Source: Sedimenticola sp. (GTDB taxonomy: Bacteria; Pseudomonadota; Gammaproteobacteria; Chromatiales; Chromatiaceae). Taken from it: 33,462 nt of DNA. The DNA lies in assembly GCA_026196475.1 (NCBI GenBank), contig JAPHTA010000087.1, positions 1 to 33,462 of the forward strand. Reading direction: 5' to 3'. A program made the translations under genes and the position numbers. Every line of letters starts with the position of its first letter. Position 1 is the first letter of the stretch. The notes below the pieces were generated by a model. The model was not told the origin of the DNA. It made no database searches and saw only the letters and a list, made by a program, of their open reading frames with translations. Below are positions 11,320 through 29,771 of the stretch, piece by piece.

Positions 11320-12543
11320 TCAGCGATTGTGCACCGCCGAGGAGAGGTCCCACATCGGCAGGAAGACACCCAGTGCCAGCACCAGCACCATAATGCCGAT
11401 AATCACGATAATGATCGGCTCGATAGCATCGGAGAGCCGGGCCAGGTCATACTTCACCTCCCGCTCGTAGTGTTCCGCCGTCTCCAGCAGCAGGTCGTCC
11501 ACCGCACCGGTCTCCTCGCCAATGGCTATCATCTGCAGCACCATGGGAGTGAACATGCCGGTGGCCGCCGCCGTGTTGGCAATCGAGTCCCCGCTCTCGA
11601 TGCCGTCCCGCATGCTCAGGATCCGTTCACTGACATAGGCGTTGTTGACCACCCCTGAGATGACCGTCAACCCGTGTACCAGCGGGACACCGGAACGCAG
11701 GGCAAGCGCCAGTGAACGGGAAAAGCGGCCCAGAATCGCCTTTTTCAGGATGTGCCCGATCAACGGGAAGCGGAGCAGCGTACGCGACCAGATGTAGCCA
11801 CCCTTCTCGCTGCGTATCCAGAAACCCAGGCCCAGCAGCACGAGAATGGTTACCACCATCATCGGCGCCCACCACTTGACCATGAAACCGGAGACCGCCA
11901 GGAGCAGCCGGGTGGCCAGGGGCAGCTGCGCATCGAAGCGGGCGAAGGCATCGGCAAACGCGGGTATCACCCAGATATTGATGATCACCATCGCCACCAC
12001 GATAGCCAGGATGACCGTCAGCGGGTAGCGGGTAGCGGACTTGATCCGGTTGCGGGTCTCCTTCTCCAGCTCCAGGTAACCGGCCAGCTGCAGGAAGGTC
12101 TCGTCCAGCCGACCGGTGCTCTCCCCGACCTTGACCAGGCTGATAAAGAGGGGCGAGAAGATATCCGGAAAGCGGGCCAGCGCCATGTGCAATTCACGGC
12201 CCGACTGGATATCCTCCGACACCCCCTTGAGTGCCGCCGCCAGGGTCGGGTTTCGGGTTGTCTCTGTCAGGCTGGCGAGGCTGCGCAGGATTGGCACCCC
12301 CGCTTTCTGCAGGGTGTAGAGCTGGCGACACAGCAGTACCAGCTCGTCCAGGGTCACCCTAGGCTTGAACCAGCCCAGCTTGATCTCCCTTCCCGCACCC
12401 CGCCTTTCCATCGGGGTGATCTCGATCGGTGTCAGGTTGGAGCGAAACAGCTGTTCCGCGACCGCTTCCGGCGTCTCTCCCTCCAGGGTGCCGGTCTGCG
12501 CCTCGCCACGCCGGTTTCGCGCCTTGAACTGGAATGCGCGCAT
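11320..12543 (-). CDS. mshG: MSHA biogenesis platform protein MshG (GspF/PilC family)
   Basis: MshG is the polytopic inner-membrane platform of type IV pilus/type II secretion machines, sitting above the MshE ATPase. The 407 residues contain two GspF domains; FCRQLYTLQKAG-type motifs appear as LLCRQLYTLQKAGVPILRSL in the first and FSRSLALALRSGVPLVHGL in the second. Hydrophobic segments occur near residue 170, at 210-235 and at the C-terminus (IIIVIIGIMVLVLALGVFLP). It is the last gene of the msh operon, 37 nt after mshE. In Vibrio the pilin genes would follow; here the next gene is the convergent DUF2333 gene. Confidence 0.92.
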   Translation of the reverse strand: MRAFQFKARNRRGEAQTGTLEGETPEAVAEQLFRSNLTPIEITPMERRGAGREIKLGWFKPRVTLDELVLLCRQLYTLQKAGVPILRSLASLTETTRNPTLAAALKGVSEDIQSGRELHMALARFPDIFSPLFISLVKVGESTGRLDETFLQLAGYLELEKETRNRIKSATRYPLTVILAIVVAMVIINIWVIPAFADAFARFDAQLPLATRLLLAVSGFMVKWWAPMMVVTILVLLGLGFWIRSEKGGYIWSRTLLRFPLIGHILKKAILGRFSRSLALALRSGVPLVHGLTVISGVVNNAYVSERILSMRDGIESGDSIANTAAATGMFTPMVLQMIAIGEETGAVDDLLLETAEHYEREVKYDLARLSDAIEPIIIVIIGIMVLVLALGVFLPMWDLSSAVHNR

Positions 12544-12580
12544 CAGTACTCTCCTGCTCCGGGGCCCGTCAGTTCAGTCA

Positions 12581-14329
12581 TCACTCCAGCTCCACGTCGC
12601 CGCTGATCCTGATCGCCTCGCTCAACGAGGTCACACCCTGTGCGGCGTAGGTCAGCACCGAATGCCAGAGTGGCCTGAACTTCCCGCTTTTCTGGGCGGC
12701 CCGGCTGAAGGCCTCATGATCATCCCGGCGCAGCGCGGCCGCCATCTCGCCGTTCAGCTCCAGCAGTTCGTAGACACCGACACGCCCCTGGTACCCGCTG
12801 TTGCCACAGCGATTACAGCCACGCCCGATACGCAATCCGTCCAGATCCAGTTCATGACGGACACCGTCCAGCCACGCCTGCTGGATGGGGTCCGGCTGGT
12901 AAGGCTCCGCGCAGTGGCTGCACACCCGCCTCACCAGGCGCTGCGCCACGATCGCCAGCAGGGAGGAGGCCAGCAGGTAGCCGGGGGCCCCCATGTCCAG
13001 CAACCGGCTGACGGTGCCGATGGCACTGTTGGTATGCACCGTGGAGAGAACGAAATGGCCGGTGATTGCGGCACGCAGCCCGATCTGCGCCGTCTCCAGG
13101 TCACGCATCTCGCCCACCAGCAGAATATCCGGGTCCTGACGCATGGCGGTGCGCAGGACACGGGCGAAACTGAGGCCGATCTGGTCGTGCACCTGCACCT
13201 GGTTGATTCGCGGCAGGCGGTACTCCACCGGATCCTCCACGGTGATGATCTTCTTCTCCGGGGTATTCAGTTCGCTCAGCGCCGAGTAGAGCGTGGTGGT
13301 CTTGCCGCTCCCGGTGGGGCCGGTGACCAGGACCATACCGTGGGGCTTCTGGATCAGCATGCGAAGTTGCTGCAGCATATCCGGATCCAGGCCCAGATCG
13401 TCGAGACTGAGAATGCCTGAACTCTGGTCCAGCAGCCGCATCACCACCGCCTCGCCGTTCTGCACCGGCATGGTGGAGAGTCGAACGTCGATCGAGTGGT
13501 TCTTTACAGAGATCTGGAAACGGCCATCCTGGGGCAGACGTTTCTCGGAGATGTCCAGGCTGGCAAGCAGTTTCAGGCGCTGCACCAGGGCCGGGGCGAT
13601 ACGCCGCTCGTTCATGATCTGCTCATGCAGGACCCCGTCGATACGCTGGCGAATCCGCAACACCTCCTCGTCCGGCTCGATGTGAATATCCGAAGCCTTG
13701 GCCTGCAGGGCGTCCTCGAACAGGGTCTGCAGCAGGCGGATCACCGGCGCATCCCCCGCCTCGGCGGTCTGCATCAGCTTGCCGAGATCCAGATCGCCCT
13801 GCTTCAGGTCCTCGTGCAGTTCACCGGCCAGCGAGGTCAACTCCTCGGAGCGGCGATACATGCGGTCAAGCGCTTCCAGCAGGTCGCTCTCCCGCACCAC
13901 CGCCTGCCGTACCCGTTTCTTCAGGGCATGGCCCAGCTCGTCGTAGGCAAACAGGTCGGTGGGATCGGCCATGCCCACCAGCACATCCTTCTCCCGCACC
14001 TCCAGCACGATCACCCGGTAGCGACGGGCGATGCTCTCGGAAAGACTCTTCACCTGGTCCGGCTTCAACGGGTAGGAGGTAAGATCGATAAACGGTATCT
14101 GCAGCTGCTGGGAGAGGAAATCGAGCAACCGCTGCTCGTCGATAAAGCCCAGCTCGATCAGGGTGTAGCCCAGCTTGTGCCCGGATTTTTTCTGCTCCGC
14201 CAGGGCCGCCTGCAGCTGGCCCTCCGAGATCACCCGGTTCTCGACCAGGAGGTCACCGATACGAATCTTTTTTCGACTGCGCAGGCCCTCGCCAGGACCA
14301 CCTGTGGATTCATCCGCCATATTCTTCAA
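12581..14329 (-). CDS. mshE: MSHA pilus extension ATPase MshE with MshEN c-di-GMP-binding domain
   Basis: This is a hexameric GspE/PilB-type ATPase that powers pilus extension (582 residues). The N-terminus contains two tandem MshEN-type motifs: RIGDLLVENRVISEGQL from residue 23 and KLGYTLIELGFIDEQRL from 52. In Vibrio MshE this fold binds cyclic-di-GMP, so direct c-di-GMP control is likely here. The first copy has Asn-Arg where Gly is common. Walker A GPTGSGKTTT is near 336 and the Asp/His box region DPDILLVGEMRD near 396. The tetracysteine zinc motif is CSHC (about 468) plus CNRCGNSGY (about 505). The start overlaps the mshN stop by 4 bp. Confidence 0.94.
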   Translation of the reverse strand: MKNMADESTGGPGEGLRSRKKIRIGDLLVENRVISEGQLQAALAEQKKSGHKLGYTLIELGFIDEQRLLDFLSQQLQIPFIDLTSYPLKPDQVKSLSESIARRYRVIVLEVREKDVLVGMADPTDLFAYDELGHALKKRVRQAVVRESDLLEALDRMYRRSEELTSLAGELHEDLKQGDLDLGKLMQTAEAGDAPVIRLLQTLFEDALQAKASDIHIEPDEEVLRIRQRIDGVLHEQIMNERRIAPALVQRLKLLASLDISEKRLPQDGRFQISVKNHSIDVRLSTMPVQNGEAVVMRLLDQSSGILSLDDLGLDPDMLQQLRMLIQKPHGMVLVTGPTGSGKTTTLYSALSELNTPEKKIITVEDPVEYRLPRINQVQVHDQIGLSFARVLRTAMRQDPDILLVGEMRDLETAQIGLRAAITGHFVLSTVHTNSAIGTVSRLLDMGAPGYLLASSLLAIVAQRLVRRVCSHCAEPYQPDPIQQAWLDGVRHELDLDGLRIGRGCNRCGNSGYQGRVGVYELLELNGEMAAALRRDDHEAFSRAAQKSGKFRPLWHSVLTYAAQGVTSLSEAIRISGDVELE

Positions 14330-15591
14330 TGCTCCGATGTGAGTGCAGCAACCCGTTGCCTGGCGTACTCGCCCACTGCCGCGGGCAGTTCACCGGCACC
14401 CAGGGCGGCACGGTAGCGGTCAAGGGCCTCTTTATGCTCGCCCCGGGCGTCCAGGGCAATGGCCAGGCCGGCCAGGACCCGGGCATCAGCCGGCCGCTCC
14501 ATCAACAGGCGACGATAGATGGCAGCGGCCCGCTCGAACTGTCCCCCCTGCTGGTAGACAGATCCCAGCAACGACAGCAGGTCCGGGTTGTCGCCGGTGA
14601 TTTTCAGATTCTGTTCCAGCAGCCGTCTCGCCTCGTCCGTAGCACCGGACTCGATCAGCATGCGCCCGAGCAATACCACGAAAGGGGCGTAGACAGGAGT
14701 AATCCGTATACCCTCGCGCAACAGCGCCTCCGCCTCCTGCCGGTCACCCTGCCGGTATCGCAACATGCTCAACAGGTGTCGTGCCGGGTGTTGTGCCGAA
14801 TCCAGCGTCAGGGCGTGTCGCAAGCCGCGCTCCGCCTCGTCGGGGTAACCGTCCTCGAACTGCTCCCGAGCCGCCCGGTAGGCGCCTTCCGCAGACTCAC
14901 GCGTCTCCTGCGAGCTGACCCGGGTGACGCGGATCGCAGGCGGCGTGACCACCTCGGATTCCGCTCCCGGCGTCCCGGTCTGCCGGGGCTGGGACACCCG
15001 CTCAACCCGCCCGGTTTCCACTACCGGCTCACCTGGAAGCACCTCATCCGCAACAGCCACCGGCGGCTCCTCTGCCTCTTCGGCGGGCGGCGCCGGAACT
15101 TCCACCCGGGACTCGGCGGTCCTTTCCCCCGAGCTGGCCATGGTGCTGCCTGGGGACTCCATCCGGGCCGTATCCCCCTCTATCCCTGGCAATGCCTCTT
15201 TCGGTGCGGTTTCCACTGGCAGTGATACTTCTGTCGGCGCTTCGGACACGATAGTCGTCGACTCTTCAGTGAGCAGCGTTGGCTGGCTTTCGGGTGCTGC
15301 AGACAATACCCGCACAACCTGGCCGGATGGGGCACCGCCCGGGTCCGGGGCCGGCGTCGGCCCGGGTGTTGCCAGCCAGCCGACCAGGCGCGACCTGGTG
15401 GCATCACCGGCCGGCGAGAACCAGAACAGCAGCGACAACGACACTGCAATCAGCAACAGCACTATCGCCTTGCGGCCTGTGCCGGCAGAGGCGGACGTTT
15501 TACCTGGCACTGCTGGCGGCATACTCGCCGCGCCCCTACGCCCGGCCTCCCGGCTGTCCAGGTCCCGCAGCATCTGGTTGATCAGGCTCAT
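14326..15591 (-). CDS. mshN: MSHA biogenesis TPR protein MshN
   Basis: This is a bitopic inner-membrane protein: a short cytoplasmic tail (MSLINQMLRDLDSRE), a membrane helix at about 41-58 (KAIVLLLIAVSLSLLFWF), a long Pro/Glu/Ser-rich periplasmic linker, then TPR repeats in the C-terminal half (ALTLDSAQHPARHLLSMLRY and VLLGRMLIESGATDEARRLL). MshN-type proteins are thought to organise the pilus assembly complex or secretin. I moved the start from 15642 to the ATG at 15591 (421 residues), which gives the conserved MSLINxMLxDL opening and a 4-bp overlap with mshM. It overlaps mshE by 4 bp at the other end. Confidence 0.86.
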   Translation of the reverse strand: MSLINQMLRDLDSREAGRRGAASMPPAVPGKTSASAGTGRKAIVLLLIAVSLSLLFWFSPAGDATRSRLVGWLATPGPTPAPDPGGAPSGQVVRVLSAAPESQPTLLTEESTTIVSEAPTEVSLPVETAPKEALPGIEGDTARMESPGSTMASSGERTAESRVEVPAPPAEEAEEPPVAVADEVLPGEPVVETGRVERVSQPRQTGTPGAESEVVTPPAIRVTRVSSQETRESAEGAYRAAREQFEDGYPDEAERGLRHALTLDSAQHPARHLLSMLRYRQGDRQEAEALLREGIRITPVYAPFVVLLGRMLIESGATDEARRLLEQNLKITGDNPDLLSLLGSVYQQGGQFERAAAIYRRLLMERPADARVLAGLAIALDARGEHKEALDRYRAALGAGELPAAVGEYARQRVAALTSEH

Positions 15592-16478
15592 GAGCCACCC
15601 CGCAGGGTCGCTGAGCCGGGTCTTCCGGAGAGGACTCGCCACAGCCGGAGCATCGGGCCGGGAGCAACCCAGGCCTCTTCCGTATCCTCGATCGCACGGC
15701 TGACATGAAGTCTGCCGACACGTTCCCGCCCTTGGCCATATGCCGCCATCAGGGATTTATGCGCCAGTATATTTATCAACCGGGGGATACCGCGACTCCC
15801 CCGATAGAGCCGCTGCAGCGCTTTCTCCCCAATCAGGCCGGGTGCGCCACCGGCGACCCCGATGCGATGCTCAAGGTAACCCTGGCACCCCTCCAGGCTC
15901 ATTGGTCGAAGGGTGTGCGAAAAGGTGATGCGCTGGCGCAACTGGCGGATCGAGCGCTGGGATAACACAAGGTCAAGCTCCGGCTGGCCGAACAGCACCA
16001 CCTGCAGCAGCTTGCTCTTCTCGGTCTCCAGGTTGGTCAACAGGCGGATCGCCTCCAGGGTCTCCAGGGGCAGGGCCTGGGCCTCGTCCAGCAGCAGTAC
16101 CACCTGGTGCCCGGATGACTTCAGTTCGATCAGACGGTGATTGATCAGCTGCAGCGCCCGGTGTCCCCCGATATTGCGCGGGCAGTCTACGCCCAATTCC
16201 TCGGCCAGGGAGTGGCGCAGCGCCGGCGGGGTCAGAAAGGGATTCGGAATGTAGGCAGTAACCATGCCCTCGTCCGCCAGCACATTCAATAGCTTGCGAC
16301 AAATAAGGGTCTTCCCGGTGCCTACCTCTCCGGTAATCTTGAGGAAGCCCTCCCCCATGCGCAGTGCCACCAGCAGCACATTCAGCGCCTCCTGGTGATC
16401 TGCATAGGAGAAGTAGAAATCTGTATCGGGGGTCAGATTAAACGGAAGTTCTTTGAGTCCAAAGTGCTTCTCGTACAT
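15588..16478 (-). CDS. mshM: MSHA-associated AAA ATPase MshM (ExeA/GspA family)
   Basis: This 296-residue ATPase of the ExeA/GspA family probably helps the secretin or assembly complex insert or organise. The N-terminus MYEKHFGLKELPFNLTPDT is the standard family opening. Walker A is GEVGTGKT (50-57) and Walker B LLLDEAQ (128-134). The C-terminal part (LIGEKALQRLYRGSRGIPRL) is a typical lid domain. Unlike full ExeA proteins it lacks a peptidoglycan-binding C-terminal domain, as expected for MshM. It begins 3 nt after the mshL stop and overlaps mshN by 4 bp. Confidence 0.92.
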   Translation of the reverse strand: MYEKHFGLKELPFNLTPDTDFYFSYADHQEALNVLLVALRMGEGFLKITGEVGTGKTLICRKLLNVLADEGMVTAYIPNPFLTPPALRHSLAEELGVDCPRNIGGHRALQLINHRLIELKSSGHQVVLLLDEAQALPLETLEAIRLLTNLETEKSKLLQVVLFGQPELDLVLSQRSIRQLRQRITFSHTLRPMSLEGCQGYLEHRIGVAGGAPGLIGEKALQRLYRGSRGIPRLINILAHKSLMAAYGQGRERVGRLHVSRAIEDTEEAWVAPGPMLRLWRVLSGRPGSATLRGGS

Positions 16479-16481
16479 GCG

Positions 16482-18227
16482 TCACTCGGTCTTCTCACCC
16501 TGGTTGCCAAAAATCTCCCCCCGGCTTCCATAGTGAAAGCCCCGGTCCAGATTCCGCAGGCGGTTGGCGGTATCGGAAACACGCGCACGCCAGGTTTCCG
16601 CACTCTCCACCACGGTGGGCCTTAACACGATAACCAGTTCGCTCTTCTTGGCTGCCTGCCGGGTATGACGGAACAGCTGCCCCACCAGTGGCAGATCTCC
16701 CAGAACCGGGGTCGAGGCGACCTCCTCTCCGCGACTGTCCTGCATCAGTCCGCCTATCACCACCAGTTGTCCGCTATGGGCATAGACCAGGCTGTCGGAC
16801 TCACGCACCGTGCTCTTTGCCAGCGGCAGGTTCTGGCTCTCGTTCCCCACCTGGATCACTTTCTGCTGGTCCGTCACCTGGCTCACCGAGGGATGGATAT
16901 GCAGGGTGATGCGGCCGTGCCGGTCGATCTGGGGAGTGACATCCAGGGCGATTCCGGAGAAGAACGGCGTAAGGGTGATATCGGGGGTGGTGGTGGTGGC
17001 GGTTCCCGTGGTGGTGGTACTGGAGACATCGGTAACAAAGAACTCGTCACTGCCGACCTTGATCACCGCCTTCTGGTTGTTCAGGGTGGAGATACGGGGA
17101 CTGGAGAGTACCTGCACGTTACCCTGCGACTCCAGCAGCTCGATAAACGCCATGAAGCTGCCGGTATTGAGCGCCGCACCAAACAGACCGCCAAAGGCCG
17201 AGAAGTTGGTAAAGCTGACCGGTGAGGCTTCAGTTGGCGAGGTGATGCCGCCACCCGGCAGCTCGACCCCGGCATCCCCGGGATTTGTGAAGAGGGATGA
17301 GCCGCCGGTCTGCCCCAGACTCAGGGTATTGCCGTCCACCGACATCATCTTGGCCCAGTTGATGCCCGACTGGAAACCATCGTTGAGTTCCACTTCGATC
17401 ACCTTGGCTTCGAGTATCACCTGCCGGTGCATCGCCTCCTGGGTAGTCTCCAGGAACATCTCCACCTCGCGCAGCTCGTGTGGCATGGCACGTACCACCA
17501 CGATGCCGGACTGGGGAGAGACCACGACCGAGCGACCATCATCGCTGCCGACGATCGAACCCAGGGCGGTGCTCAGCTCGCTCCAGAAATCGGTCTCCGA
17601 CGAGGTATTGATTTCGGTACCGGAGATCGCGCCACTGCCGCCGCTTTCAGACTCTCCACCGCTGTCATCGCTGCTCTCGGCAGACGAGACCTGGCCCGAG
17701 CTGACCCGGGTCTGGGAGCTGCCATTGCGTTTCATGTTCAGGTAGTTGACCTGGAAAATGCGCGACTGCAGCCTCGCCGGCAACACGTGAAAGCCGCTGC
17801 GGACACGCTGGTACTCGTATCCGTATACATCCCGCAACACCTCCATCACCTCGGGAATGGTGACCTGCTTGAGACTGAGCGAGAGGGTACCACTGACCTT
17901 CGGATGCACCACCATGTTGTAGTGCGTGCCCTCCACCAGGCCCATCAGGAATGTGGCAACCGGCACTTCGTTGACATTGACATCGAACCTCGCCTCCGAG
18001 GGGCCCTTCGATACACTGGCTGGAGGTAGCCCAACCGGTGGCATCAGGGCTGCCGCTACGGCGGGTGGCGGCACTGCGGGTGCGGACTTCGGTGGCTCCG
18101 GAACCTGAAGGTCTTCCTGTATCGCCGACATGGTGCCACCATCCTTTGGCGCCATGCTCTGACAGCCCGCCAGCAGCAGCGTCAGCACCAGCAGCGCTGG
18201 CCGGGTCATAGTACGAAACAGGCTCAT
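16482..18227 (-). CDS. mshL: MSHA outer-membrane secretin MshL
   Basis: This is the secretin lipoprotein (581 residues) forming the outer-membrane pore for the pilus. A signal peptide ends in the lipobox LLAGC (C22). N-terminal STN/N0-like and secretin_N regions follow (FDVNVNEVPVATFLMGLV and GTLSLSLKQVTIPEVMEVL). A Ser/Gly-rich linker at about 170-215 comes next, then the secretin beta domain with VQVLSSPRISTLNNQKAVIKVG and LVVIGGLMQDSRGE. The Thr-rich loop (SSTTTTGTATTTTPD) makes a GGT-rich run on the plus strand, which is coding and also common in MshL relatives. It overlaps mshK by 4 bp. Confidence 0.94.
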   Translation of the reverse strand: MSLFRTMTRPALLVLTLLLAGCQSMAPKDGGTMSAIQEDLQVPEPPKSAPAVPPPAVAAALMPPVGLPPASVSKGPSEARFDVNVNEVPVATFLMGLVEGTHYNMVVHPKVSGTLSLSLKQVTIPEVMEVLRDVYGYEYQRVRSGFHVLPARLQSRIFQVNYLNMKRNGSSQTRVSSGQVSSAESSDDSGGESESGGSGAISGTEINTSSETDFWSELSTALGSIVGSDDGRSVVVSPQSGIVVVRAMPHELREVEMFLETTQEAMHRQVILEAKVIEVELNDGFQSGINWAKMMSVDGNTLSLGQTGGSSLFTNPGDAGVELPGGGITSPTEASPVSFTNFSAFGGLFGAALNTGSFMAFIELLESQGNVQVLSSPRISTLNNQKAVIKVGSDEFFVTDVSSTTTTGTATTTTPDITLTPFFSGIALDVTPQIDRHGRITLHIHPSVSQVTDQQKVIQVGNESQNLPLAKSTVRESDSLVYAHSGQLVVIGGLMQDSRGEEVASTPVLGDLPLVGQLFRHTRQAAKKSELVIVLRPTVVESAETWRARVSDTANRLRNLDRGFHYGSRGEIFGNQGEKTE

Positions 18228-18595
18228 TTTCCCCCTCCGGATAAACCCTTTGACGGGGTTTTGACAGTTATCGGTAACAGTTCGAGTTTGATTTTTTTCC
18301 CCTGCATCTCCAGCTCCACGGAATAGCTGTCGATGTTCAGCAGGCTTGCTCCATCGATCTCGTCGCCCTCTTCGAGGTGTCGGTCGTTGATCACGGCCCG
18401 TTTTCCCCGTGGTCCGCAGAAGATGGCTGAGAGCCGGAACATATCCGGCTGCAGGGCCTGGCTCTGGGCATCCGGCGCACTCATCTGTTCTCCCGGTCGG
18501 TACCCGAACGGCTGCATCGGATCCCGGAATGCTGCCGATACCGGGCCGCCCATGATCAGCAGGGTCAGGACAAAGACAAACAGTCTAGACACCAA
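18224..18595 (-). CDS. mshK: MSHA biogenesis protein MshK (PilP-like)
   Basis: This 123-residue secreted protein has a signal peptide (MVSRLFVFVLTLLIMGGPVSA) and the mature start FRDPMQPFGYRPG, where DPMxP is typical of MshK/PilP-like and GspB-like proteins. The mature part is a small beta-rich domain (AVINDRHLEEGDEIDGASLLNIDSYSVEL) of the kind that links inner-membrane alignment proteins to the secretin. The start overlaps mshJ by 11 bp and the stop overlaps mshL by 4 bp. Assignment rests on position and the DPMxP opening. Confidence 0.84.
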   Translation of the reverse strand: MVSRLFVFVLTLLIMGGPVSAAFRDPMQPFGYRPGEQMSAPDAQSQALQPDMFRLSAIFCGPRGKRAVINDRHLEEGDEIDGASLLNIDSYSVELEMQGKKIKLELLPITVKTPSKGLSGGGK

Positions 18596-19280
18596 TCCAT
18601 CCCTCCGAGAGACTCAGGGTATGCAGTCTCAATTTAACCCTGATCAGCGGGTAGTCGCTGACCCCCAACTCCACGCCGTCCCAGAAGAAACTGGAGGGTA
18701 GGTCTTCCAGGGTTTTCAGGTAGTCGAGCACGGAATTGAACTCACCCTCGAACTCGATCAGGAAGCCGTGACGATAGATACTCTTGCTGGCTGCCTCCTT
18801 CACTGCACCGGTGACACCCTCCTCCACGGCGCCGGCTTCCGACGTGGTAACCAGGGGCTCGCTCCTGAGCGTATTGAGTCGAATCATCTCGATCCCGTTC
18901 TGACGCAGCAGCATCTGCTCCAGCAACCGTGACATCTCGCCCGGCGCCAACAGGCTGTCCGTGGTCCCCTTGATCTCCCCCTCCATTCGAGCAACCTGCT
19001 CACGGATACGCTCGAGCTCCAGCCGGATTTTGCGATTCGGGTCGTCCGTGGCCTGAACCACCATGCCCCTGAGCCGCACGTCCAGCAGCTGAATCTGCTC
19101 CCGGATCTGGTCGTTGCCCTCCAGCAGCTGTTTCTGATGCTGGGTGGCCGGATACCAGACCAGGTTGAGCCAGGCCCCACCCAGGGTCGCCAGTAACAGG
19201 AGTAGCAGCATCACCCGCTCGCGCAGGGTGAGGCTGTCAAACCGTTCCGAGAGGCCCTTGAATACCGTTGCGACGCTCAC
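18585..19280 (-). CDS. mshJ: MSHA biogenesis protein MshJ (GspM/PilO-like)
   Basis: This is a bitopic alignment-complex protein of 231 residues. It has a cytoplasmic N-terminal segment (SERFDSLTLRERVMLL), one membrane helix (about 23-43), a coiled-coil stretch (LEGNDQIREQIQLLDVRL and IRLELERIREQVARMEGEI) and a C-terminal periplasmic ferredoxin-like part (GFLIEFEGEFNSVLDYLKTLE). This layout is that of GspM/PilO proteins. It overlaps the PilN-like gene by 4 bp and mshK by 11 bp. Confidence 0.86.
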   Translation of the reverse strand: MSVATVFKGLSERFDSLTLRERVMLLLLLLATLGGAWLNLVWYPATQHQKQLLEGNDQIREQIQLLDVRLRGMVVQATDDPNRKIRLELERIREQVARMEGEIKGTTDSLLAPGEMSRLLEQMLLRQNGIEMIRLNTLRSEPLVTTSEAGAVEEGVTGAVKEAASKSIYRHGFLIEFEGEFNSVLDYLKTLEDLPSSFFWDGVELGVSDYPLIRVKLRLHTLSLSEGWIGV

Positions 19281-19894
19281 TCCTGCTCCTCCACGGCCAT
19301 TGTCTGCAGCTTGAACTCCAGTGCCGGGTCGAACTCGTCAAGACGCACCAGCTCCATCACCTGGAAACTCTTGCCGGCAAACGCCGCCTCCGATTGCAGC
19401 TGTTGAAGCAGCCTGGGTACCGCCTCCGGTTGCAGTGTCTTGCCGGCCAGCAACAGCGTCGCGCCGGCGTCGGCAACCTGGATTCGGGTCAGCCAGACTT
19501 CCGGACCCGACTGTCTTGCCAGCCCCTCGACGTAACCGGAGAATCCCTCAGGATTGCTCTCGATCCGGGTCTGCAGCATGTTGAGCAGATCGGCACCGGC
19601 CCTGCGACGATCGACAAGCTGCTGCAACTCCCGTTCCAGTAGCTTGTTGACTGTCGGTTTCGGGAGCTTCTGTGCCATCTCCGCCACCCGTTGCTCCAGT
19701 TCCTGGTGACGGGCCTCCAGCTCGGCCCGCTGCTGCTGCAGGTTCCCGGACTGCCACTGGGCAAAGCCGTAAAGTGCGCCCATCAGCAGCAGGGAAAGGA
19801 GCGACAACCCCAGTACCACATTCAGGGAAAAAGTGACCGCCTGTCGGCGAAACACCGGCTGGTAGAGATTGATCTGCTGTCGGCGCATGCTCAA
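19277..19894 (-). CDS. PilN-domain MSHA alignment protein
   Basis: This 205-residue bitopic protein starts MSMRRQQINLYQPVFRRQ; the INLYxP segment is the PilN/GspL peptide that docks onto the actin-like partner (here MshI). A membrane helix at about 20-45 (VVLGLSLLSLLLMGALYGF) is followed by a coiled coil (LQQQRAELEARHQELEQRVAEM) and a PilN fold with SGYVEGLARQSGPEVWLTRI. It is called MshI2 or PilN-like in related annotations. It overlaps mshI and mshJ by 4 bp each, so translation is coupled throughout. Confidence 0.88.
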   Translation of the reverse strand: MSMRRQQINLYQPVFRRQAVTFSLNVVLGLSLLSLLLMGALYGFAQWQSGNLQQQRAELEARHQELEQRVAEMAQKLPKPTVNKLLERELQQLVDRRRAGADLLNMLQTRIESNPEGFSGYVEGLARQSGPEVWLTRIQVADAGATLLLAGKTLQPEAVPRLLQQLQSEAAFAGKSFQVMELVRLDEFDPALEFKLQTMAVEEQE

Positions 19895-20817
19895 TCGTCC
19901 CTCAGGGCGGCGCCAATGGCGGGAAGAGAGCGGTAGAGCGTGGCCGGGTCAAGATCCCCGATGCCGCCCAGACATGGCGACAGGTCCAGTAGTTGAACCG
20001 GCGCTGCCAGTCCCTGGTCGGCCAGTGCCTGCAGTTGGGTCTTGCGGGATTCGGGGGCGATAATGGAGATACCGGAGACCGGCCCCAATCCGAAATGGCT
20101 CTCGTGGTAGTCGAGCGAGCGCTGAAGCTCCAGAACCAGGGTTTCAAGCTGCTCCTCGAGACCGAAACCTCCCTGCTCTTCCAGGTCGTTGCCGCTGATC
20201 TCGATTCGCCTGCTCAGGAAGATGGCGTCTCCCTGCACGATCTGGATCATGCCGTAGTGCGGCGGCAGATAGAGCAGGGCGTGAAACCCCTCCCCGGGGA
20301 GATTCGTGGCCATTACGTTTCGCAACGCCAGCTCTGTAATGTCGATAGCGCCTATATCCAGCCCCAGCGACTCCATCTGGTCGACGCAGCGCTGTATAAA
20401 AGCACGCCTGGATACCACCACGTAGATCATTCGTGGACCGCTGCGTCGCTCCGAGGTGGGCATGTCGAACAGGTCGATCACCGCATCGTCAATATGGAAG
20501 TCGAGCAGATCCTTGACCCGCCAGCGAATAGCACTGGCCAGCTCCTCCTGCTCAACCTCCGGCGCCTCGACCTGGAACAGCGAGTAGGCGCTGGGGCCCA
20601 GAACCGCGGTTACCCGTGCCCCCTTCAGTCCATGCCGGCGTACCGCCTGGACCAGTGACTCCGCGGGTTCGTCAGCGGGATCCTGGGAAGAGAAAACGCA
20701 TTGCAGGATACGCGGCTCGCTACCACTCCGGTCCATAGCAACCAGGGAGAGGCCATCGACATGAAATCCCAACCCAACGCTGTTTTTGTTCTGTTTACGC
20801 TTTTTCAGCAACCCCAT
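19891..20817 (-). CDS. mshI: MSHA biogenesis protein MshI (PilM-like actin fold)
   Basis: This cytoplasmic actin-like protein of 308 residues resembles PilM/GspL cytoplasmic domains. Family-typical segments are VGLGFHVDGLSLVAMDRSG at the N-terminus, AIRWRVKDLLDFHIDDAVIDLF in the middle and GLDIGAIDITELALRNV. It should bind the N-terminal peptide of the PilN-like partner encoded next. It is the first msh gene, 121 nt after the sensor kinase stop, in an intergenic region with an A10 tract. The start is ATG at 20817 with only a weak purine-rich ribosome-binding site. Confidence 0.9.
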   Translation of the reverse strand: MGLLKKRKQNKNSVGLGFHVDGLSLVAMDRSGSEPRILQCVFSSQDPADEPAESLVQAVRRHGLKGARVTAVLGPSAYSLFQVEAPEVEQEELASAIRWRVKDLLDFHIDDAVIDLFDMPTSERRSGPRMIYVVVSRRAFIQRCVDQMESLGLDIGAIDITELALRNVMATNLPGEGFHALLYLPPHYGMIQIVQGDAIFLSRRIEISGNDLEEQGGFGLEEQLETLVLELQRSLDYHESHFGLGPVSGISIIAPESRKTQLQALADQGLAAPVQLLDLSPCLGGIGDLDPATLYRSLPAIGAALRDD

Positions 20818-24213: not shown

Positions 24214-26520
24214 ATGGAAGAGGTATCCAGCGACGCCCGGCCCGTCCCGGGAGGCAAAAGCCACCAGCAACTGATCAACGAGTGTCGTGACCAGGTGATG
24301 GTCTACCTGACTACCCAGCTGACCGAATTATTTGGGCAGGTAGAGCCGGCATTCATCGACTTCGCCAGAAAAGCCGAAAGCGATGTCATGCAGAACCGTT
24401 TCTTCGACTCAATCAACCAGATTCTCGACCAGAGGGAACAGATCGAGCAGGCATTCAAGGCATCGATCAACGACGGTTTTGTCGAGTTCACCCGGGGCGG
24501 ACATATTCGCTACCCGGACTCCCCGATCGAGGCCAGGGATGAATCGGAGCTGGGGATGGTGGACGACGATATTCTGGAACAGCACCTGGCGATACAGAGC
24601 CTGATTTCCAAGACACAGAACAGCTGTTACCAGGAGCTGTATGCCCTGGGCAAGCGCCTGGCCATCGTACGCGGGGGTAAAAAATTATCGGACGATGACA
24701 TCCCGGCCTGCCCGGCACATGTAGCCACCGCTTTCCAGGAAGCGGCCAGGTCGCTGGAGCTGGACAAACAGATCATGCTGATCATCTATTTCCTGTTCGG
24801 CAAGTATGTGCTGAACGATGTCCGCTCCATCTACCAGAGCCTGAATGACGAGCTGATCCAGGCCGGCATACTGCCGAACCTCAAGCTCAGCGGCCTGGTA
24901 CCGCCGTCCGACAGGTCCGGGAGCGCCGGGCAGCAGGAGCCCGACGCAACACAGTTGCCCGGTGAGGATGTCGGGGGTAATGAGCCGAGTGGCGGCTCAC
25001 CGGGCCCGGCGGCCGGCCTGGGAGAGGAGCTGTTCAAGTCCATTCATGACCTGCTGACGGCCAGGCGAGCAGCAGACCCTGCGTACCGCAACCATCCCGA
25101 GTTTTCCGGTCAGGATGGCGGGAGGGGACTGCTGAGCGCACCAAGCATTGCCCAGGCGATTCACTCGCTGCAACCCTCGAAACAGGCCGACTACCTGCCC
25201 GACCCCGACAGCGAGGACGGCATACCCCAGAGCATCGAACTGGACACCCAGCTGATCCAGAATGTGCGCCAGACGCTGGAGCGGGAGCAGCAGAAACTGC
25301 TAGATGAGCTGGACCGGGAGAAACTCCCGGCTGCCGACCTGGACACCATCGAGCTTGTCGGCATGCTGTTTGAACAGGTTCTGGACGAAGAGGGCCTGGC
25401 AAACATCGCCAAGGCCCTTATCAGCCACCTGCACACACCCTATCTCAAGGTAGCCATTCTGGATCGGCAGTTTCTCAAGGACGAAACCCATATTGCCCGC
25501 CGGCTGCTCAACCTGATGGTGGACGGCGGAAAGCGGTGGATCGACGAAGAGGACCTGAGACGCGGCGTCTATTACCCGATGCAGGAGATCGTCAAGACCA
25601 TTCTCTCCGAGTTCAAAAGCGAGCTTTCCCTGTTCGACGAGATGCTTTACAAGCTGGACAAACAGCTGAATGAACTGGAGCAGAGAGCGAGGGTTCTGGA
25701 AGAACGCAACCAGGAGGCGGCCAAGGGCCGTGAACGGTTGGAAACTGCCCGCACCCGGGCCCGTGAAATTATCCAGAAGCGCATTGCGGGACGTAAACTG
25801 CACCCGGTACTGGAGCGTTTTCTCAACCACGCCTGGCAGGATCGTCTGATTCTGATGCTGCTACGCAACCCGGAGATCGAAAAGAACAAGGAGTGGACCT
25901 CCGCCCTGGCGGTTATCGACAGCCTGGCCCGGGTGATGGAGGCGCGACACAACAGCAAGGTGAAGGAGTGGCTGGCGAAGAACCACGACAACCTGGTCCG
26001 GCATATCAAGGCCGGGCTCAACTCTCTTGGCAACTACCACCACCCGGATAGCAATGCCCTGTTCAAGCTGATCGAAAGCGTATTGCAGGAGCCGGTCACA
26101 CCAGAACCGATGGAGGATCCCGGCGCGGAGGCCATGGAGGTCGCGGAACCTGTAATCAGGAACCTGTCAAAGGAGCAGCCGGCACCCAGGGAGGAGGAGA
26201 CTCCGGCACTATCCGCGGAAGAAGACCAGATACTGCAGGAGCTGCGCAAGATGAAGTTTGGCACCTGGTTCGAACTGCTTGACGACAACCAGGTTCCGCG
26301 CCGGCTCAAGCTATCCTGGTTCAGCCCGATAACCCGCAAGTACATGTTCGTGGACCGTTTCGGAATGCAGGCCTATATTACACCTGCGGAGACACTGGCG
26401 ACCCAGCTCTGTTCGGGCAAGGCAAGGATCATCAAGAGCAACGGCATGCCTTTTGTCAGCCGGGCATTGAAAACCATTCACACAATCCTGAAAAAAACCA
26501 TTGGCATACAGTCGGCCTGA
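24214..26520 (+). CDS. Large DUF1631 family protein
   Basis: This 768-residue cytoplasmic protein of unknown function matches DUF1631 family organisation. It has a helical N-terminal part (LINECRDQVMVYLTTQLTEL and FFDSINQILDQREQIEQ), a Gly/Pro/Ser-rich linker around 230-275, and a long helical middle with QNVRQTLEREQQKLLDEL and IAKALISHLHTPYLKVAILD. A coiled coil comes next (LDKQLNELEQRARVLEERNQ), then a C-terminal beta-rich segment (FGTWFELLDD and RRLKLSWFSPITRKYMFVD) that resembles PilZ-like c-di-GMP effector folds. No signal peptide or membrane segment is seen. AAGGAAG precedes the ATG. The next gene, 24 nt on, is a true PilZ-domain protein, which supports a signalling role. Confidence 0.88.
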   Translation: MEEVSSDARPVPGGKSHQQLINECRDQVMVYLTTQLTELFGQVEPAFIDFARKAESDVMQNRFFDSINQILDQREQIEQAFKASINDGFVEFTRGGHIRYPDSPIEARDESELGMVDDDILEQHLAIQSLISKTQNSCYQELYALGKRLAIVRGGKKLSDDDIPACPAHVATAFQEAARSLELDKQIMLIIYFLFGKYVLNDVRSIYQSLNDELIQAGILPNLKLSGLVPPSDRSGSAGQQEPDATQLPGEDVGGNEPSGGSPGPAAGLGEELFKSIHDLLTARRAADPAYRNHPEFSGQDGGRGLLSAPSIAQAIHSLQPSKQADYLPDPDSEDGIPQSIELDTQLIQNVRQTLEREQQKLLDELDREKLPAADLDTIELVGMLFEQVLDEEGLANIAKALISHLHTPYLKVAILDRQFLKDETHIARRLLNLMVDGGKRWIDEEDLRRGVYYPMQEIVKTILSEFKSELSLFDEMLYKLDKQLNELEQRARVLEERNQEAAKGRERLETARTRAREIIQKRIAGRKLHPVLERFLNHAWQDRLILMLLRNPEIEKNKEWTSALAVIDSLARVMEARHNSKVKEWLAKNHDNLVRHIKAGLNSLGNYHHPDSNALFKLIESVLQEPVTPEPMEDPGAEAMEVAEPVIRNLSKEQPAPREEETPALSAEEDQILQELRKMKFGTWFELLDDNQVPRRLKLSWFSPITRKYMFVDRFGMQAYITPAETLATQLCSGKARIIKSNGMPFVSRALKTIHTILKKTIGIQSA

Positions 26521-26544
26521 ACAGGCTCCGTAAGGAATACCCAA

Positions 26545-26883
26545 ATGAGTGAAAAACGAACTCAACCCAGAAAAATCTGTGATAACCGGATTGATATTCT
26601 CGACGCCGAGTCAAACCAGGTGGTTGGTAACCTGGTCAATATCTCGCTCAGCGGGTTCATGATGATTACCAACAAAGCCCTTCCCGAAAACTACGTATTC
26701 CAGTTCGTAATCGTGTTCTCACCGGGCAGCACCGACAGTACCAGCATCCGGGTTGGCGCCGAGAGCCTGTGGCTGCAGGAGATCGAGGGTTCCAGCCAGT
26801 GCTGGATCGGCTTTCACATCATTGACATATCTGAGCAGGACCAGGCGCGGATCGGGGAACTGATTGGTAACTGGAGGGAGTAG
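26545..26883 (+). CDS. PilZ-domain protein
   Basis: This 112-residue single-domain protein has the PilZ pattern: an N-terminal Arg-containing region (RTQPRKICDNRIDIL) and the NxSxxG motif as NISLSG within LVNISLSGFMM. A later strand WIGFHIIDIS is typical of the barrel end. The usual RxxxR pair is not cleanly present; the Arg residues are spaced R-x5-R, so c-di-GMP affinity is uncertain. It is co-directional with DUF1631, with AAGGA before its ATG, and converges on the lytic transglycosylase gene (12 bp between stops). Confidence 0.86.
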   Translation: MSEKRTQPRKICDNRIDILDAESNQVVGNLVNISLSGFMMITNKALPENYVFQFVIVFSPGSTDSTSIRVGAESLWLQEIEGSSQCWIGFHIIDISEQDQARIGELIGNWRE

Positions 26884-27949: not shown

Positions 27950-28408
27950 ATGTCAGAACTGGAGTTTAACGTTTCCCAGGTGCAGTGGGCGCAGTACAGG
28001 CCGCAACTGCGGGAGATTCGGCGCCAGGTTTTTATCATGGAGCAGAATGTGCCCCGGGAGCTGGAGTGGGATGACAAGGATGAGACGGCACTGCACGTGA
28101 TCGCTGTCGATTCCGAGGGAAATGGTATCGGCACGGGGAGGATCAGCAACCAGGGGCAGATCGGAAGAATGGCCGTGCTTCGTGAATGGCGGAACCGTGG
28201 CGTGGGCGGCACAATGTTGAGGAAATTACTGTGGATGGCCAGTCAGGCAGAGCTTCCGACGCTGTACCTGAACGCACAACAGAGTGCCATCCCTTTCTAC
28301 CGGCGGCACGGTTTTGTCCCGGTAGGTGACACTTTCATCGAGGCCGGCATTCCCCATCAACGCATGCAGCTGAGGCCGAATTCCACAACCGCGGCCCCGT
28401 CAACCTGA
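27950..28408 (+). CDS. GNAT family N-acetyltransferase
   Basis: This acetyl-CoA-dependent transferase of about 152 residues starts at ATG 27950 (MSELEFNVSQVQW); the upstream ORF extension has no domain features. The acetyl-CoA loop is visible as RMAVLREWRNRGVGGTML (R-x-x-G-x-G type), followed by LYLNAQQSAIPFYRRHGF, a standard GNAT C-terminal motif, and FIEAGIPHQRM, as in ElaA/YjcF-like members. The acceptor is unknown. It is followed after 11 nt by a DUF7931-type gene, a pairing I recall from other gammaproteobacteria. Confidence 0.88.
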   Translation: MSELEFNVSQVQWAQYRPQLREIRRQVFIMEQNVPRELEWDDKDETALHVIAVDSEGNGIGTGRISNQGQIGRMAVLREWRNRGVGGTMLRKLLWMASQAELPTLYLNAQQSAIPFYRRHGFVPVGDTFIEAGIPHQRMQLRPNSTTAAPST

Positions 28409-28419
28409 ATGGAGCAGAC

Positions 28420-28932
28420 ATGCCAGCGATCGAACAACAGAGACTTGGGGAAAGCAGGGAACGCCTGATTCTGCATCAGCGCAGTGAATTCCGCCAGGCC
28501 ATCGAGCTGATGGCGCAACAGGCCAGCCGCAGTATCGATATCCTGACCTACGATCTGGACAAACCGGTCTACGATCAGGCCGGTTTTCTGGAAGCGGTCA
28601 AACAGCTGGCCCTGCGTACCCCGGGGCTCTCCATCCGGATTCTCCTGCAACAGAGCGAAAAGGTTCAGAAAGAGGGCCACCGTCTGATCGACCTGGCCAG
28701 GCGTGTGACCAGCAGGATAGAGATCAGGCGTCCACACGCGGACTATATCGACCACCCGGAAAACTTCATCGTAGTGGACCGGACAGGCTATGTCCGCCGC
28801 TCCCAGCCGGATCGCTACGAAGGCGAGGCGAACTTCTGTCACCCCCTCGAATCGAAACTGCTGAGCGAGTTTTTTACCGAGGTCTGGGACAAGAGCGAAG
28901 TGGAAAGCACCCTGCGAAGGCTCTACCTGTGA
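28420..28932 (+). CDS. DUF7931-like protein with PLD-type fold, degenerate HKD
   Basis: This 170-residue cytoplasmic protein reads like a single phospholipase-D-like domain: ASRSIDILTYDLDKPVYD (first strand), LSIRILLQQSEKV (second strand) and HPENFIVVDRTGYVRR at the place where PLD enzymes have HxKxxxxD. The Lys of HKD is replaced by Glu and the Asp is one residue late, so catalysis by the PLD mechanism is unlikely. I assign it to the DUF7931 type from memory of its companionship with GNAT proteins; this needs a profile search. Its stop overlaps the next gene's GTG start (GTGA). Confidence 0.65.
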   Translation: MPAIEQQRLGESRERLILHQRSEFRQAIELMAQQASRSIDILTYDLDKPVYDQAGFLEAVKQLALRTPGLSIRILLQQSEKVQKEGHRLIDLARRVTSRIEIRRPHADYIDHPENFIVVDRTGYVRRSQPDRYEGEANFCHPLESKLLSEFFTEVWDKSEVESTLRRLYL

Positions 28933-29771
28933 CCGGTGAGAGAAAATTGAAAAGACTGTTCCTGATACTTGCCGTGTTGCTGTGCACACCCGCTCAGCTG
29001 CTTGCCGACTATCCACTGGAAATCATTGAACTGAAGAGTCGGCAGGTATCCGAAATGATCCCCCTTCTGCGGCCGTTCGTGGACGCGGATGGCTCGATTG
29101 CGGGCATGAACAATCAACTGATCATTCGCACCTCGCCAGAGAACCTGCGGGAGATACAGAAGATCCTGCAGCGACTCGACCAGCCACCGCGGCACCTGAT
29201 GATTTCCGTGAGGCAGGTGAGCGCAGCCAGTGTATCCCGCGATCGATCACAGGCCGACATCAATGCCATGATCGGTAACGGCAAGGTGATCGTGGGACGA
29301 CAGGGCACCCACCCGGGCGTGCGTTACAGACTCAAGGAGTCTTCCACCCGCAGCGACCGGGATATTACCCATCGCCTGCGGGTGACCGAGGGTTACCCGG
29401 CGTTTATCACCACCGGGCAGGCAATTCCGGTACCCGAGCAGACCACGGTTATCGATGGCCGTACCGTCTACCAGCAGCGAACGACCCGCTATCGCCAGGT
29501 CAGCAGCGGCTTCTACGTCACCCCCCGGCTCAACGGCGACCGGGTGATGCTGGATATTGGCCCCCGATTGGAGCGCCCCAGCGGGGAGCAGGACGTCTTT
29601 ACTAACCAGCAGGCCCACACCCGGCTCTCCGGGCCACTCGGTGAATGGATCACCATTGGCGGGGTTTCCCAACAGGCAGGGTCCAGTCAAGACGGGGTGT
29701 TGAATCACGCGAGAACAGCGAATGGAGACGACCGGCTGATCCAGGTACTGGTGCAGGAACTGACACAATAA
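28929..29771 (+). CDS. Small secretin-like periplasmic protein
   Basis: This 280-residue secreted protein has a signal peptide (KRLFLILAVLLCTPAQLLA). It then has a secretin N1-type domain (YPLEIIELKSRQVSEMIPLL...NNQLIIRTSPENLREIQKIL) with the LDxPPRHLMI exit strand as LDQPPRHLMISVRQV. The remaining 170 residues carry strands like the secretin beta domain (VTEGYPAFITTGQAIPVPE, SSGFYVTPRLNGDRVMLDIG and GPLGEWITIGGVSQQ). It is about half the size of a real secretin and lacks its N0 domain and the usual VxSxPxxxTxNN block. The start is GTG 28929, overlapping the previous stop. No pore should form alone; its role is unknown. Confidence 0.75.
   Translation: MTGERKLKRLFLILAVLLCTPAQLLADYPLEIIELKSRQVSEMIPLLRPFVDADGSIAGMNNQLIIRTSPENLREIQKILQRLDQPPRHLMISVRQVSAASVSRDRSQADINAMIGNGKVIVGRQGTHPGVRYRLKESSTRSDRDITHRLRVTEGYPAFITTGQAIPVPEQTTVIDGRTVYQQRTTRYRQVSSGFYVTPRLNGDRVMLDIGPRLERPSGEQDVFTNQQAHTRLSGPLGEWITIGGVSQQAGSSQDGVLNHARTANGDDRLIQVLVQELTQ

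Follow-up and report, generated by a model that had tools for sequence, protein, structure and literature searches.

A conserved operon pairing an acetyltransferase gene and a pseudo-PLD gene with a gene for a mini-secretin in Sedimenticola and related bacteria

The proteins described here each have known relatives. Secretins such as GspD/XcpQ, PilQ, InvG and phage pIV combine a signal peptide with an N1-type domain and a beta core that runs to an LGG-type strand. According to a structural study (PMC6532946), every secretin with a structure known so far has an amphipathic helical loop, thought to start the contact of secretins with the membrane. The FAM83 (DUF1669) family consists of pseudo-PLDs (PMC6008594); like TrmB/TrmBL2, its members have a PLD-like fold in which the catalytic HKD motif is incomplete. 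Acetyltransferases of the YjcF/ElaA type share the GNAT domain, and the mnmA-hflD-purB cluster of Gammaproteobacteria, in part with roxA, forms the usual surroundings of the genes examined here. Our literature searches found no paper naming DUF7931 and no description of a mini-secretin. We found that genes for a GNAT protein, a DUF7931 protein and a mini-secretin are a real, widely conserved operon unit, as seen from their order, tight spacing, repeated fusion, persistence away from purB and roxA, and predicted folds. Our preferred explanation, to which we give about an even chance, is that this operon couples an acetyltransferase and its non-catalytic pseudo-PLD partner to a periplasmic, non-classically inserted secretin-type ring, thereby linking a cytoplasmic step to an envelope machine.

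The window, a stretch of 33,462 nucleotides from a Sedimenticola genome assembled in 399 contigs, contains all three genes on one strand (Table 1). An earlier note had read them as genes for an acetyltransferase, a catalytically degenerate PLD-like protein and an exported secretin-like protein, separated by an 11-nt gap and joined by a 4-bp overlap. We recovered the same coordinates from the sequence, with the 11 nt (28409-28419) lying between the GNAT stop and the DUF7931 start, and the descriptions of the proteins hold, with Pfam assigning GNAT, DUF7931, and Secretin_N plus a partial Secretin domain. Because the mini-secretin begins with GTG at 28929, the letters GTGA are common to its start and the DUF7931 stop. 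Among 82 homologous loci, the median distance from the DUF7931 stop to the mini-secretin start was 5.5 nt, and a 4-nt overlap was inferred in 26 of the 82, under a start rule that favours short distances for both values. The GTGA of the window is one instance of this recurrent predicted coupling, which at the level of sequence lends support to the earlier suggestion that the genes are co-translated. According to open reading frames and Pfam, the trio is flanked upstream by DUF1631, PilZ and an opposite-strand transglycosylase and downstream by mscS. The DUF1631 gene and the small PilZ-domain gene that follows it (24214-26883) also lie as a pair upstream of the trio in two Sedimenticola relatives (G002 and G004).

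Table 1. Positions of the three genes and of their shared stop/start in the window
Feature	Position	Strand	Description	Basis
GNAT gene	27950..28408	+	ATG at 27950, 152 aa, stop end 28408	ORF reading + Pfam
DUF7931 gene	28420..28932	+	170 aa	ORF reading + Pfam
mini-secretin gene	28929..29771	+	GTG start, 280 aa, stop end 29771	ORF reading + Pfam
GTGA stop/start overlap, DUF7931 / mini-secretin	28929..28932	+	4 bp	

Of 274 genomes drawn evenly across the class, 125 have DUF7931, 85 the mini-secretin and 76 both, a co-presence with a Fisher odds ratio of 24 that is uncorrected for ancestry, as are all presence/absence statistics given here. In 66 of the 76 genomes with both genes, these were adjacent on one strand with DUF7931 first, while in the remaining 10 they were on separate contigs of draft assemblies, such that some of these pairs may be adjacent too. 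Similarly, among 112 relatives, most genomes with both genes have DUF7931 beside the mini-secretin, often with GNAT directly upstream; in G011, G026, G035 and G060 the two are separated, being on different contigs or at a large distance on the same one. Given an adjacency this frequent, the linkage is non-accidental: the rare adjacency of homologues, which the earlier note had named as the mark of a chance arrangement, is the opposite of what we observed, and together with the odds ratio it led us to reject accidental linkage. Across the class, the operon occurs in many families.

The trio is, however, not obligatory. The genome collection was scanned with a narrower alignment, the broad one (A1) being too diverse for that scan. 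Roughly one in two named loci carries the mini-secretin without DUF7931, and most of these are from Betaproteobacteria, whose loci mostly have it without either GNAT or DUF7931; a protein that is so often solitary must have a function independent of the other two. The expectation of a conserved three-gene system thus stands for the DUF7931-mini-secretin pair and for the GNAT-DUF7931 connection, which recurs as gene fusions, and fails for the trio as a fixed set, since GNAT is an optional member of the module and the mini-secretin is found alone in many Betaproteobacteria. In three Rhodocyclales-type genomes (L137, L145 and L150), an AFG1/ZapE-type ATPase gene takes the place of DUF7931 just upstream of the mini-secretin. 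In a betaproteobacterial bin (L164:5654-6786), only a short remnant of DUF7931 is left and the mini-secretin behind it is broken into two frames, which may reflect either decay of this copy or a fault in the assembly. Two loci titled Bordetella parapertussis (L146) and Klebsiella pneumoniae (L165) come from metagenome bins, and the DUF7931 of L165 is nearly identical to that of an uncultured gammaproteobacterium (L167), so these species names are probably wrong.

The first gene encodes a member of the GNAT superfamily, with an Acetyltransf_10 match in Pfam (3e-18) and the acetyl-CoA motif R-x-x-G-x-G, read directly from the sequence as RNRGVG. Its closest solved chains are those of YjcF/ElaA-type proteins (1q2y at 1.8e-21, SACOL1063, PA0115, and ElaA, 5z6n, at 2.3e-8), from which it differs in falling below the ElaA equivalog cut-off (45.9 vs 171 bits) and in its pairing with DUF7931. 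Across 60 DUF7931 loci of the class sample, GNAT immediately precedes DUF7931 in 26, the mini-secretin follows it in 43, and 18 loci have both. Furthermore, GNAT and DUF7931 share one uninterrupted open frame in 13 loci, two of which are one record, leaving 12 distinct fusions; on the DUF7931 tree, these correspond to 8 changes by parsimony, of which at least two are forced by well-supported branches. That the fusion occurs in several lineages is a good argument for a joint action of the two domains. In the genomes of L086, L095, L097 and L099, the mini-secretin is parted from DUF7931 and GNAT-DUF7931 is fused in all four; in L095 and L097 the mini-secretin lies beside a nudix (NudF-like) gene.

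The most serious alternative is that the three genes are neighbours without a joint function, late members of an old purB operon that are kept together by shared transcription and slow rearrangement. The commonest gene order is mnmA-hflD-purB-roxA-GNAT-DUF7931-mini-secretin, in which roxA and GNAT are not part of every locus: among the same 60 loci, PurB was upstream in 50 and RoxA, identified by JmjC_2 and a ROXA-like winged helix, in 19. A nudix gene often follows the mini-secretin on the opposite strand, and acn is nearby in some loci. Our literature searches returned no description of this purB/hflD/mnmA cluster or of ycfD neighbours. The surroundings favour such an explanation, as does the solitary mini-secretin of Betaproteobacteria. 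Against it stand the GNAT-DUF7931 fusions on several branches, the correlated presence of DUF7931 and the mini-secretin, and the situation in Sedimenticola. While purB or roxA is usually the gene immediately upstream of the pair or trio, the trio of the window has left this cluster and lies between DUF1631-PilZ and mscS. In the Sedimenticola genome G004, which consists of 2 contigs, purB is at 1,058,182 and the trio at 1,190,982-1,192,796, about 131 kb away, and 5 of the 7 Sedimenticola genomes, G004 among them, yielded no RoxA. The Sedimenticola trio is thus separated from purB yet intact, and that its genes stay together in the absence of purB and roxA speaks against simple hitch-hiking. We judge a shared history without shared function to be unlikely, if far from negligible.

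A narrower form of our preferred explanation assigns the operon to the type IVa pilus: the mini-secretin would stack on or help assemble PilQ, and GNAT-DUF7931 would modify a cytoplasmic pilus component. In line with this, the type IVa pilus marker PilP was present in 84 of the 85 mini-secretin genomes vs 140 of the 189 others, all 47 mini-secretin genomes tested had a Secretin-domain match, and a PilT/PilU-family ATPase gene adjoins the locus in three cases. The T2SS-L marker, by comparison, was absent from 27 of the 85, the genome of the window included, so a T2SS is not required, and we rejected dependence on it. However, of the 49 genomes that have DUF7931 but no mini-secretin, 48 also carry PilP, so that it does not separate the two groups, and the flagellar control FlgH was enriched as well (65 of 85 vs 82 of 189). 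Ancestry and genome size are confounders of the association with PilP, and the pilus link is therefore only a lead. In addition, almost all loci have the trio outside pil genes, with neighbours that are mostly purB/roxA. We regard a dedicated pilus accessory module as rather improbable. The window itself holds, on the minus strand at 11320-20817 and about 7 kb from the trio, a gene run like an MSHA-type pilus cluster, with GspF-like, GspE-like ATPase, TPR, AAA ATPase and further small genes that were named by eye, and a full-length MshL-like secretin (16482-18227, with PVLGDLPLVGQLF) that was identified by search.

The mini-secretin is a secretin by predicted fold, with a reduced architecture. 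Its Secretin_N (1.4e-9) and partial Secretin (1e-7) matches in Pfam both exceed the curated cut-offs, and a profile built from 21 homologues matches XcpQ, PilQ, GspD, pIV and other secretins. Its structural model is of moderate confidence (pLDDT 76.5, with residues 102-143 at low confidence) and consists of one N1-type domain (about residues 30-83) followed by a short secretin beta core (about 89-277) with long beta strands. The first 40 Foldseek matches of this model were all secretins, with PilQ, InvG, pIV and GspD at about 1e-14 to 1e-10; for this moderate model, the best PDB matches reached E-values down to 4e-14 at TM scores of 0.4-0.5. The N1 domain of XcpQ aligned with the N1-type domain at 36% identity over 58 columns (rmsd 0.9). 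Comparison by hhalign with a single MshL gave nothing useful. The N-terminus looks, by eye, like a signal peptide, with a hydrophobic core and the letters LLA/DYP. The earlier reading as an exported secretin-like protein is thus borne out by model, Foldseek and alignment, with export predicted from the signal-peptide-like stretch. Unlike the secretins described above, however, the mini-secretin has a single N domain, with no N0 or further N domains in Pfam or the model, a shortened core and no amphipathic helical loop. The motif PxLGxIPxxGxLF, whose conserved LG-x-IP we take to be this loop, occurs in the window's own MshL-like secretin and in none of 64 mini-secretin homologues.

Since this conserved loop is missing, we propose that the mini-secretin, once exported, would form a secretin-type ring in the periplasm that is not classically inserted in the outer membrane. 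The loss of the loop suggests another way of using the secretin fold. The protein could instead be a complete minimal secretin that enters the outer membrane without the usual loop, as its N1-type domain and long beta strands are kept in the model and phage pIV is matched by its profile over a single stretch. That loop, common to all structurally characterised secretins (PMC6532946), is nevertheless absent throughout the homologues, and in the protein from the window the tips of the hairpins seem polar on inspection, which makes a minimal outer-membrane secretin distinctly improbable.

The DUF7931 protein scored 146.3 bits (7e-43) against DUF7931 (PF25559), far above the gathering cut-off of 27 bits, with a sub-threshold PLDc_2 match (0.029). 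We modelled DUF7931 alone with AlphaFold2; in the alignment of the GNAT-DUF7931 fusions (A4), the GNAT and DUF7931 rows are misaligned against each other. The confident model (pLDDT 90.6) retrieved PLD folds in Foldseek, led by human FAM83 (BJ-TSA-9) and followed by archaeal TrmBL2/TrmB, NucT, Nuc and Zucchini; a sequence search of the PDB gave no match. The protein thus has a PLD fold, as modelled, and lacks the catalytic HxK(x)4D: within the HKD motif, D120 was invariant in 72 of 72 sequences and the H and K positions were unconserved. This makes a catalytic PLD role unlikely and upholds the view of a catalytically degenerate PLD-like protein, for which a binding or scaffolding role appears plausible. 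Matches to NucT, Nuc and Zucchini might suggest an active PLD-type nuclease or lipase, but with a single HKD motif that conserves the aspartate alone, we rejected this role and give it next to no credence. DUF7931 differs from FAM83/DUF1669 and TrmB/TrmBL2 in being bacterial and in being partnered with or fused to GNAT.

In the coupling of a cytoplasmic step to an envelope machine that we favour, GNAT would be an active acetyltransferase, and DUF7931 would serve as its non-catalytic pseudo-PLD partner, with a role in placing the enzyme or in ligand sensing. Translational coupling would match the production of DUF7931 to that of the ring protein, and the module, as we propose, thereby links cytoplasmic modification or sensing to the envelope machine, with the type IVa pilus secretin as tentatively the most likely neighbouring machine. 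More broadly, the mini-secretins might represent a widespread class of the secretin fold: periplasmic rings, soluble or peripheral, that lack the membrane-inserting loop. Their synthesis would be tied by translational coupling to that of a cytoplasmic complex of acetyltransferase and pseudo-PLD, which would act by modification or sensing across the inner membrane. We consider this generalisation speculative and would assign it only a low probability.

Overall, our findings describe a conserved, uncharacterised operon in many families, with two proteins, DUF7931 and the mini-secretin, for which the literature searches yielded no description. The GNAT-DUF7931 fusions provide a concrete, testable prediction of a partner for a domain of unknown function. 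If the mini-secretin works without the loop thought to start insertion, it would offer a direct test of what the loop is for, and it may represent an accessory ring that is added to pilus or envelope machines.
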